Source of the DNA: Trueperaceae bacterium
GTDB taxonomy: Bacteria > Deinococcota > Deinococci > Deinococcales > Trueperaceae
Assembly (NCBI GenBank): GCA_036381035.1
Contig: DASVDQ010000104.1
Span: 1-46,993 of the forward strand
Length of the DNA: 46,993 bases
Direction of reading: 5' to 3'
The position numbers were made by a program, and so were the translations under genes. Shown in pieces: positions 27,124 to 30,613 of this stretch. Positions within the stretch are counted from its first letter, which is position 1; every line of letters starts with the position of its first letter. The notes under the pieces were generated by a model. The model searched no databases. It saw nothing but the letters and a program-made list of their open reading frames with translations, and was not told where the DNA came from.

Positions 27124-28143
27124 CTAGGCCAGCTCCACGCCAGAGCCCGCCACGACCTCGCCGACCGGCAGCGCTCCCGGCGCCAGCGCCAGCGCCTCGC
27201 TGAGGTCGGCGGCGCCGACGACGACGACGAACCCCAGGCCCATGTTGAAGACGTCCCACATCTCGGCCTCGCTCACGCCCCCGGCCGCGGCGATGAGGCC
27301 GAACACCTCCGGCACGTCCCAAGCGCCGCGGCGGAGCCTGACGCCGACGCCCGCCGGCAGGCTGCGGGGCAGGTTGCCGGGCAGGCCGCCGCCGGTGACG
27401 TGGGCCATCGCCCGCGCCAGGCCGCGCTCCAGGAGCGCGCGCACGGGCGACAGGAAGCTCCTGTGCTCGGCGAGCAGCGCCCGCCACACCGGCGTGCCGT
27501 CGGAGAGGGCCTCGCCGAGGCGCCCCTCCAGGGCGCGGCGCGCCAGGCTGAAGCCGTTCGTCTGCAGGCCGCCCGAGGGGAAGCCGAGCACGGCGTCGCC
27601 GGGGGCGACGCGCGAGCCGTCGACGACCCTGCCGCGCTCGACGACCCCGACGATCGTGCCCGCCAGGTCGAACTCGCCCTCGCGGTAGACGCCGGGCATC
27701 TCGGCCGTCTCGCCGCCCAGCAGGGCCATGCCGGCCTCGCGGCAGGCCGACGCCACCCCCGACACGAGCCGGGCCGTGACCTCCGGCTCCAGCCGCTCGC
27801 CGGCGACGTAGTCGAGGAAGAAGAGCGGCGTCGCGCCCTGCACCAGCACGTCGTTCACGCAGTGGTTCACGAGGTCGCGGCCGATGCCCTCGAGCACGCC
27901 GGGCTCGCCGGCGTAGCGCCGCGCCAGCACGGTCTTCGTGCCGACGCCGTCGGTGGAGGCGACGAGCACGGGCCGCTCGAGGCCCGGGGGCAGCTCGAAC
28001 AGCCCGCCGAACGCGCCGAGGCCGCGCAGTACGCCCGGCGTGTAGGTCGACTCGACCTCACGAGTTATCAAATCGAGGGTGCGCGCCGCCGCCTCGAGGT
28101 CGACGCCCGCCCGCTCGTACGCCCGCCCTTCCGTCCGGCCCAT
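27124..28143 (-). CDS. purM: Phosphoribosylformylglycinamidine cyclo-ligase
   Basis: AIR synthetase of de novo purine synthesis, ATP-dependent ring closure of FGAM; 339 residues. Signatures include VASTDGVGTKTVLA, LVNHCVNDVLVQGATPLFFLDY, LLGGETAEMPGVY, GLQTNGFSLAR and HVTGGGLPGNLPR. ATG 28143 is chosen over ATG 28152 because a TAGCAT -10 overlaps the latter. It converges with the kinase gene; the 73-base spacer between them has a distant inverted repeat (GCGGGCCC near 27050, GGGCCCGC near 27115). Divergent from priA across a tandem repeat. No other pur gene is in the window. Confidence 0.96.
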   Translation of the reverse strand: MGRTEGRAYERAGVDLEAAARTLDLITREVESTYTPGVLRGLGAFGGLFELPPGLERPVLVASTDGVGTKTVLARRYAGEPGVLEGIGRDLVNHCVNDVLVQGATPLFFLDYVAGERLEPEVTARLVSGVASACREAGMALLGGETAEMPGVYREGEFDLAGTIVGVVERGRVVDGSRVAPGDAVLGFPSGGLQTNGFSLARRALEGRLGEALSDGTPVWRALLAEHRSFLSPVRALLERGLARAMAHVTGGGLPGNLPRSLPAGVGVRLRRGAWDVPEVFGLIAAAGGVSEAEMWDVFNMGLGFVVVVGAADLSEALALAPGALPVGEVVAGSGVELA

Positions 28144-28328: not shown

Positions 28329-28334
28329 TACACT
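28329..28334 (+). promoter_or_regulatory. TANNNT -10 element for priA
   Basis: TACACT ends eight bases before the GTG at 28343, consistent with a leaderless transcript. Confidence 0.5.
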
Positions 28335-28342
28335 CGAGGGAC

Positions 28343-30613
28343 GTGCTGGGCGCGATAGACGTGCTCTTCCCGCTGCCGCTCGGCCCTCTCACCTACCTGG
28401 CGCCGCTGCGGTCCGGGGCGGGGGAGGGCGTCGTCGGCCGCCGCGTCGTCGTGCCGTGGCAGGCCGGCGTGCGGGTGGGCCTCGTGGCCCGCTCGCGCCC
28501 CGTCGACGCCGGCAGGGGCCTGGAGCTGAGGCACGCCCTGCGCTACCTCGACGAGGCGCCGTTCCTCGGACCCGACCAGCTGCGCGCCGTCGACTCGATC
28601 GCCAGGGGGACGGGCCTGCCGCCGGGGCTGGTCCTCGCCACGCTCGGGGTGCCGGGGCTGACCCTCGAGCTGGACCACCAGGTGAGGCTGCACGAGACGC
28701 CCGCGGCCGCCGAGCTGTTCGGCGACCTCACGCCGGGCGCGTGGCTGCCGGCGGAGCGCCTGGGCGCCAAGGAGCTCGACCACCTCCGCGCCCAGGGGCT
28801 CGTCGACGAGGCCGTGCGGGTGGTGAAGCCGACGCGGCGGGTGCTGGTGCCGCGCCGGCGACCGGACGAGGGCCTCGCTGGTCCCAGGCAGGCGAACCAG
28901 CGCGGCGCCATGGAGCGGCTGCTGGAGCTGGGGGAGGTCGAGAGCGCCGCGGCGCTGGCGCGCGACGCCGAGGTGCCGGAGAGCGCGGTCAGGGCGCTGG
29001 TCGAGAAGGGCTACGCGGCCTACGAGGAGGTCGAGGCGCCCGTCCCGCCGCTGCCCGGCCCGCCGCTGCGCGACGACCGCCTCGAGGACCCGCCGCCGGG
29101 CGCCGCGGCCGCGCCGGCCGGGGGCTACGTGGCGGGCGGCTCGCGGCGCGCCCGCCTCTCCGCGCTGCTGCCGACCCTGGCCGACGACCTCGCGGCGGGC
29201 CGCAGCGCGATCGTCGTCGCCCCCGAGAACACGCTGGCGCGTGAGGCAGCGGGCCTGCTGGCGACGCGCCTGCCGGTCCGCTACCTGACGGGCGAGGCGA
29301 CGGACGACCAGCGCGAGGCGCTGTTCGCCGAGCTGCCGTCGTCCGGCCCGGTCGTGCTCGTGGGCAGCCACGTGGCGCTGCTGGCGCCCGTGCCCGAGCT
29401 CGGCCGTGTCGTGGTGCTCGAGGCCGGCAACCAGGCGCACAAGCTGAGGTCGGGCGGCCGGCTCTACGTGCCGAAGGCCGCGCAGCGCGTCGCGGCGGCT
29501 GCCGGCGCCGGCCTCACGCTCACGGACGTCGTGCCGAGCCCCGAGCTCCTGGCCCTCGGCGGGGAGGGCGGCGGCACGCTCCTCCCGCTGCCGCGCCTGC
29601 GCGTCCACGTGGCCGACATGTCGGGCGGGGCCGGCTGGCCGCTCCACCCCGACCTGCAGCTCACGTTCAGGCAGGTCGTCCAGCGCGACCGCCAGGCCGT
29701 CGTGCTGGCGCCCCGCCGCGGCTTCTCCGGCGCCTACGGCTGCCTCAACTGCGGCTGGCAGGCGCCGTGCCCGAACTGCGACCTCACGCTCCGCTACCAC
29801 CGCGACGAGGGGCGGCTGCGTTGCCACCAGTGCGGCCACGACGCGCCCCTGCCGACCGTCTGCCCCCAGTGCGGCAGCGAGGACCTCGGCGCCCTCAAGG
29901 GGGCGGGTACGCAGTGGGTGCTCTCGCAGCTCGCGCGCCTCGCGCCGGGGTTCCCTGGGTACCGCTACGACTCCGACAGGCGCGACGACCTGAGCCCCCT
30001 CTACGCCGGCGAGCCGGGCGTGGTCGTGGGCACGACGGCCGTGCTCCGCCTGCCGCCCCTGCCCGAGCTCTCCCTCGTGGCCGTCACGCTGTTCGACGTC
30101 CACCTGGCCCTCGCGGACTTCCGCGCCGAGCAGGAGGCCCTGCGGATGCTCTTCCAGGTCGCCGAGCTCTCCGCGGGACGCCGCCCCCTGGTGCTGGTCC
30201 AGACGTTCGCCCCCGGTTCGCCGGCGCTGCGCGCCGCGTCCTCCGACGCGCCCGAGGTGGCGGTGGAGACGCTGCTGGCCGCGCAGCTCGAGCGCCGGCG
30301 GCGCTTCGGCTACCCGCCGTTCGCGACGCTCGCGAAGGTGCAGGTCACGGCGCGCGACCGCGCCAGCGCGCACGCCGGCGCCCACGCGGCCGCCGACAGG
30401 TTGCGCGTCGCCGGGGCCCTCGACGGCGAGCTGCTCGGGCCCGAGGCCGCGCCGGTCGCGCGCGTCAAGGGGCGCTACACCTTCCAGCTCCTGCTCCGCG
30501 TGGCCGACGAGTCCCGCCTCGAGGGGTTGCTGGCCGCCCTGCCCGACAGGCTGTCGGGCGCGCGCGTGGCCGTCGACGTCGACCCCGTGGACGTCGGGGA
30601 GCTCCTCGAGTGA
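28343..30613 (+). CDS. priA: PriA replication-restart protein, helicase motifs lost
   Basis: Primosomal protein N', which recognises stalled forks and directs reloading of the replicative helicase; 756 residues from GTG. The N-terminal 3'-DNA-binding domain (VLFPLPLGPLTYLAPL) and winged helix are recognisable. The zinc region is complete with four C-x2-C pairs (GCLNC, CPNC, CHQC, CPQC, about 465-510). The helicase lobes are degenerate: the Walker A region reads VAGGSRRARLS where GVTGSGKT is usual, the DEEH box reads LEAGNQAH, and the AGRAGR arginine-finger region reads AELSAGR. ATP hydrolysis is therefore not expected. D. radiodurans PriA is known to be a pseudohelicase, so this is probably ancestral, not decay. 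Confidence 0.92.
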   Translation: MLGAIDVLFPLPLGPLTYLAPLRSGAGEGVVGRRVVVPWQAGVRVGLVARSRPVDAGRGLELRHALRYLDEAPFLGPDQLRAVDSIARGTGLPPGLVLATLGVPGLTLELDHQVRLHETPAAAELFGDLTPGAWLPAERLGAKELDHLRAQGLVDEAVRVVKPTRRVLVPRRRPDEGLAGPRQANQRGAMERLLELGEVESAAALARDAEVPESAVRALVEKGYAAYEEVEAPVPPLPGPPLRDDRLEDPPPGAAAAPAGGYVAGGSRRARLSALLPTLADDLAAGRSAIVVAPENTLAREAAGLLATRLPVRYLTGEATDDQREALFAELPSSGPVVLVGSHVALLAPVPELGRVVVLEAGNQAHKLRSGGRLYVPKAAQRVAAAAGAGLTLTDVVPSPELLALGGEGGGTLLPLPRLRVHVADMSGGAGWPLHPDLQLTFRQVVQRDRQAVVLAPRRGFSGAYGCLNCGWQAPCPNCDLTLRYHRDEGRLRCHQCGHDAPLPTVCPQCGSEDLGALKGAGTQWVLSQLARLAPGFPGYRYDSDRRDDLSPLYAGEPGVVVGTTAVLRLPPLPELSLVAVTLFDVHLALADFRAEQEALRMLFQVAELSAGRRPLVLVQTFAPGSPALRAASSDAPEVAVETLLAAQLERRRRFGYPPFATLAKVQVTARDRASAHAGAHAAADRLRVAGALDGELLGPEAAPVARVKGRYTFQLLLRVADESRLEGLLAALPDRLSGARVAVDVDPVDVGELLE

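Follow-up and report, generated by a model that had tools for sequence, protein, structure and literature searches.

The PriA protein of Deinococcus radiodurans neither hydrolyses ATP nor unwinds DNA, and it binds single-stranded DNA, forks and the replicative helicase DnaB (Lopper, Boone and Morrow, 2015; PMC4504706). The same authors aligned 17 Deinococcus-Thermus PriA proteins and found helicase motifs I and II to be poorly conserved, with arginine in place of the Walker A lysine. The PriA helicases of Escherichia coli and Klebsiella (8fak, 6dcr, 4nl4) carry the ATPase motifs. For E. coli, the passages on restart in PMC10175261 employ the K230A variant of PriA in DnaB-loading assays and describe PriA-PriB restart in vivo as independent of the PriA ATPase. 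As for a possible loader, DciA genes are recorded in Thermus-Deinococcus by Brezellec et al. (PMC5109545), and in Caulobacter DciA is suggested, according to a section of PMC9825169, to act with PriA. The motor-less state of PriA is therefore already known for Deinococcus-Thermus, and the protein described here adds one member. New are the tight conservation of the dead site and a similar change in three genomes of another phylum.

The window, by which we mean the whole analysed stretch of 46,993 nucleotides, contains a priA frame that is uninterrupted from its GTG start codon to its stop codon and in which all domains are colinear (Table 1). Their order is the same as in the E. coli and Klebsiella helicases, and identity to E. 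coli PriA is 25.6% over 669 aligned columns. The Pfam models PF17764 (PriA_3primeBD), PF18319 (Zn_ribbon_PriA) and PF18074 (PriA_C) all score above their gathering thresholds; with its 3'-binding, zinc and C-terminal domains the window PriA thus has the domain set of a PriA orthologue. All eight zinc-site cysteines announced in the earlier note are present (residues 467, 470, 476, 479, 494, 497, 507 and 510). The protein reaches 217.3 bits (218.7 in the genome search) with the NCBIfam priA equivalog model TIGR00595, just under the cut-off of 230.35 bits, presumably because the helicase motifs form part of that model. No second intact PriA was found in the source genome, a draft of 170 contigs that is 96.46% complete: the priA model gives a single near-full match there, and its four other matches cover only short parts of frames that are 690-1140 aa long.

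Table 1. Features of the priA locus; nucleotide positions refer to the window, and residues to the window PriA unless E. coli is named.
Feature	Positions	Strand	Basis or remark
priA, pseudohelicase PriA, 756 aa, GTG start	28343..30613	+	stop codon within range
-10-like element TACACT, ends 8 nt 5' of GTG	28329..28334	+	sequence scan
3' DNA-binding domain, PF17764, residues 7-100	28361..28642	+	Pfam
Former Walker A (motif I), GGSRRARL, residues 265-272, E. coli Lys230 replaced by Arg271	29135..29158	+	alignment
Former Walker B (motif II), LEAG, residues 359-362, acid Glu360 retained at E. coli Glu321	29417..29428	+	alignment
Former motif III, TDVVP, residues 394-398	29522..29536	+	alignment
Cysteine-rich region, eight zinc-ligand Cys, residues 467-510	29741..29872	+	Pfam, alignment
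Former motif V, VGTTAVLRLP, residues 562-571	30026..30055	+	alignment
Former motif VI, QVAELSA, residues 605-611, arginine-finger segment shorter by two residues, E. coli Arg584 replaced by Leu	30155..30175	+	alignment
PriA C-terminal domain, PF18074, residues 659-748	30317..30586	+	Pfam

Alignment to E. coli PriA and the Pfam matches bear out that the helicase motifs are replaced while the DNA-binding domain is kept, as had been noticed from the DNA. The earlier note was right that the Walker A motif is gone; its register, VAGGSRRA, lay two residues too far N-terminal, since GVTGSGKT (224-231) of E. coli aligns with GGSRRARL. At DEEH (320-323) the window PriA has LEAG, which opens the LEAGNQAH of the note; phmmer gives the identical register for both cells. 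Furthermore, GSATP aligns with TDVVP and QVAGRAGRA with QVAELS--A. A scan of the whole window PriA for a GK dipeptide, a Walker A pattern, DExH/D and GRxGR gives no match, and therefore no displaced copy exists; this rules out a displaced but intact Walker A, which the earlier note had named as a refuting outcome. No Pfam match to DEAD, ResIII or Helicase_C is obtained even at E 0.1. At E 0.001, control PriA proteins of E. coli and locus L037 match all three models, and two other PriA proteins of the window's phylum (L036, L043) match none. Lacking Walker A, DEEH and the motif VI arginines, the window PriA does not qualify as an active SF2 helicase.

It does have the sequence hallmarks of a Deinococcus-Thermus pseudohelicase: phylum membership, the Lys-to-Arg change in Walker A and a poor Walker B. 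The resemblance to the D. radiodurans pseudohelicase pointed out beforehand holds against its published description (PMC4504706): both proteins have lost Walker A and B, with arginine for lysine, and both have kept the DNA-binding parts and the zinc region. In this comparison the D. radiodurans sequence is represented by other PriA proteins from the window's phylum, and every one that covers the motifs agrees. The published biochemistry is that of the D. radiodurans protein; the window PriA is a Trueperaceae-type protein read from sequence. The taxonomic placement likewise stands, the best named match being that of an uncultured Trueperaceae MAG (L036, 58% identity), which looks identical to a genome assigned to the window's family (G093). 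From this match and the shared published motif losses we take the window's phylum to be Deinococcus-Thermus (Deinococcota).

We mapped the loss by alignment, as the earlier note had advised. A PriA search (query P0002) matches 102 of 111 phylum genomes and 83 of the 85 good ones (at least 90% complete, at most 5% contaminated), and no listed match has an internal stop. The matched genomes yield 101 rows, some partial (L107 and L109 are without the motif V-VI region); the counts omit a 75-aa frame (G101), L036, apparently identical to L009, and the window's own duplicates L001 and L006. This widens the published picture from 17 to 101 PriA rows, and the motor is lost in all that cover the motifs. 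In E. coli numbering, Arg occupies position 230 in 97 of the 98 rows that have a residue there, Gly occupies position 225 in 96/97, position 321 is acidic (Glu or Asp) in 100/100, Asp at position 320 is found in 0/100, and Arg587 of motif VI is gapped in 99/99 covering rows; each zinc cysteine is kept in 100/100. The one exception at position 230 is an Ala in L032 (GGTPEQAIKR), with an Arg three residues downstream. Three of the 101 rows (L014, L015, L097) contain a Walker A-like string elsewhere and read GGYRAERL, GGYRAERL and GGKPRERF in the P-loop cells. GRxGR occurs somewhere in seven rows, yet Arg587 is gapped in every one.

By comparison, Lys230, Asp320, Glu321, Arg584 and Arg587 are intact in 60/60 active-type outgroup rows, which come from 58 genomes (one genome underlies both L037 and L111, another both L038 and L112) and exclude the motor-less class described below. 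On the Clostridia side 21 of 41 genomes were read (the 20 best-scoring and G112), and on the L037 side 37 of 41 plus two motor-less ones, two further genomes having no PriA match. A tree built from 58 rows groups all 30 that belong to the window's phylum, the window PriA among them, in one clade with support of 100/100. No intermediate between active and motor-less PriA was found. The alignment thus indicates that the losses in the window PriA are not due to chance, since they recur in the other PriA proteins of the phylum, and the motor was probably lost once, ahead of the split into the families now known. This phylum, noted for its DNA repair, would restart replication with a motor-less PriA.

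The motifs are lost, as the earlier note had it, but not simply lost, for the Arg at the lysine position and the acid at Glu321 are conserved throughout the phylum. Among 735 columns, columns 224, 225, 230 and 321 rank 38, 39, 60 and 86 in conservation, while columns 227, 228 and 357 rank 585, 651 and 712, and neighbouring catalytic positions drift; these ranks are based on one representative for each of 30 out of 31 genera, one genus being without a full-length PriA. The dead site has a signature of its own: GG(x4)R together with the acid at 321. With Arg271 and Glu360 among the 90 most conserved columns, the 'lost motif' becomes a testable claim. In the 25 closest pairs with dS > 0.05, dN/dS is 0.064-0.319, so that purifying selection is evident. 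The median for the full set of 2994 pairs (dS of 0.05-1.2) is 0.592, and the window PriA gives about 0.39-0.65 against members of genus g8 (L007-L012, L036). By segment, the median is highest in lobe 1 (0.691) and stands at 0.445 in the zinc region. We read the high values of distant pairs as saturation in GC-rich DNA, and constraint is therefore claimed for close pairs only. Mean conservation in the phylum versus active-type PriA, indicative only as taxon sampling differs, is 0.393 versus 0.518 for lobe 1, 0.467 versus 0.574 for lobe 2 and 0.502 versus 0.503 for the zinc region; in the 3'-binding, winged-helix and C-terminal parts the phylum has the higher values.

The predicted structure keeps the helicase fold, and the nine best Foldseek matches are all PriA. 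The model was built from 4 sequences and has a mean pLDDT of 67.7 and a pTM of 0.50, with residues 1-112 below 50. At the former P-loop it places a strand (261-264) and a helix from residue 268, in a block with pLDDT of 82-89. Sequence and model together are compatible with a former P-loop that is retained as a structural latch, perhaps through a salt bridge between the Arg and the acid in an empty nucleotide site.

The conserved loop and acid could also be an altered nucleotide site that binds nucleotide without hydrolysing it and serves as a switch, which we regard as improbable. The published assays on D. radiodurans PriA covered hydrolysis and unwinding, not nucleotide binding (PMC4504706), and such a switch would fit with GG, Arg230 and acid 321 being near-invariant amid catalytic positions that otherwise drift. 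Against it speaks the shortened motif VI segment in every covering row. Moreover, Gly229, Thr231 and Asp320 of PriA are phosphate or Mg2+ ligands, and in the window PriA they are replaced by Ala270, Leu272 and Leu359.

Far less probable still is a gene that is merely decaying and has no role in restart, which other proteins would carry out. The lower conservation of lobe 1 than in active-type PriA and the high dN/dS of distant pairs point in that direction; they are countered by the presence of PriA in nearly all good phylum genomes without internal stops in the listed matches, by the invariant cysteines, by the low dN/dS of close pairs and by the binding of forks and DnaB by the D. radiodurans protein (PMC4504706). 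That frameshifts or assembly errors only mimic motif loss is the least credible reading: the draft state of the source genome leaves room for it, and it is refuted by orthologues with the same losses, as well as by a frame that is open and colinear over all domains.

The reading that we favour is a PriA that works without a motor. The window protein would be the chromosomal PriA of a Trueperaceae-type bacterium and a pseudohelicase. With its inactive RecA-like lobes and the 3'-binding, zinc and C-terminal domains it would recognise D-loops or forks that have been abandoned, and it would recruit DnaB without ATP hydrolysis or unwinding; DciA would probably join this step at PriA-bound forks. 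The old P-loop, a predicted strand-loop-helix that keeps GG(x4)R, would act as the latch together with the conserved acid at 321. While function, DciA step and latch are all inferred, we hold it highly probable, taken together, that this is an ATP-independent fork-recognition pseudohelicase that recruits DnaB, probably with DciA, and that lost its motor early and kept the P-loop as a latch. The earlier idea that restart would rely on structure recognition and protein contacts fits the published biochemistry of both E. coli and D. radiodurans.

Candidate partners are encoded in the source genome. DnaB scores over the cut-off, with a further DnaB piece on another contig, and DciA is found in 105 of 111 phylum genomes, the source genome among them. 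Five partial matches to the IstB/DnaC-type loader model PF01695, three of them over cut-off, make a DnaC-type loader possible in the source genome. The PriB model is over cut-off in 0/111 phylum genomes and has sub-cut-off matches in 106/111. In many genomes a single frame of about 270-300 aa carries two PriB/SSB-type OB-fold matches in tandem, probably the two-OB-fold SSB of the phylum, and we read the sub-cut-off PriB matches as SSB. In keeping with the absence of a PriB over cut-off, three PriB-docking residues of E. coli PriA differ in the window PriA (Asp438 to Asn, Thr482 to Glu, His483 to Asp), while Ser481 is kept.

A second group of motor-less PriA proteins was found in one class of the phylum of L037, in 3/3 genomes (G180, G166 and G193; loci L154, L155 and L173). 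This phylum is probably Armatimonadota, where NCBI places Zipacnadia, the class of L037. The three proteins are single open frames of 678-687 aa that share GG(x4)R with the window PriA (Walker A cells GGDRTKRL, GGNRMKRL and GGNRLRRL), have Arg at Lys230 and contain neither DEEH nor GRxGR. All eight zinc cysteines align in L154 and L155, the two that were counted. Position 321, in contrast to the acid of the window's phylum, is Gly. Of 41 genomes taken from the L037 phylum, two have a low-scoring PriA, and it is their class that holds the three motor-less proteins; two more have none. When 221 genomes from that phylum were screened by score, 202 were over cut-off (including the motor-less G193), 207 matched at E 1e-20 and 14 were unmatched. 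No further full-length motor-less PriA was seen by score; motifs were read in the fetched rows only, the mid-scoring G216, G344, G360 and G363 being covered by score alone. The scores of G228, G296 and G323 (under cut-off) and of G301 and G304 (low) reflect a match to only part of the gene.

L154 and L155 are closer to active-type PriA (mean identity 25.8-26.5%) than to PriA of the window's phylum (21.5-21.9%), which suggests that their motor loss is separate from that in Deinococcus-Thermus. The stem of the class is long (2.3 changes per column), and trees that hold the class with the window's phylum or with its own are equally good when compared with the quick tree (p-AU 0.907 and 0.94). Our literature search, made in open-licence papers, brought up no PriA pseudohelicase from any group but Deinococcus-Thermus. 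Actinobacterial PriA may likewise lack the helicase motifs, and the search found nothing on this. Tentatively, and with more doubt than confidence, we consider that PriA lost its motor at least twice, each time with the Lys turned into a fixed Arg in GG(x4)R, so that the dead P-loop would be no relic but a reused part, an arginine latch by which the lobes stay fork-bound and competent to recruit DnaB. If the second lineage is independent, one may ask which genome context makes the PriA motor dispensable.

Finally, the spacing of the -10-like TACACT from the GTG codon supports the start at 28343 and suggests, as far as the sequence can tell, a leaderless priA mRNA. The motif TAGACT ends 5-9 nt upstream of the start in 6/6 relatives that belong to one genus (L007-L012), and a lax scan, with no control for chance, finds that in 67 of the 92 phylum loci TANNNT ends 4-11 nt upstream of a candidate start. 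Between positions 27124 and 32473 the window shows a four-gene order in which priA (+) is preceded by one gene on the minus strand and followed by two on the plus strand; we take these neighbours to be purM (-), smpB (+) and an amidase gene (+). In L036, the lengths and strands of the reading frames flanking priA agree with those in the window.
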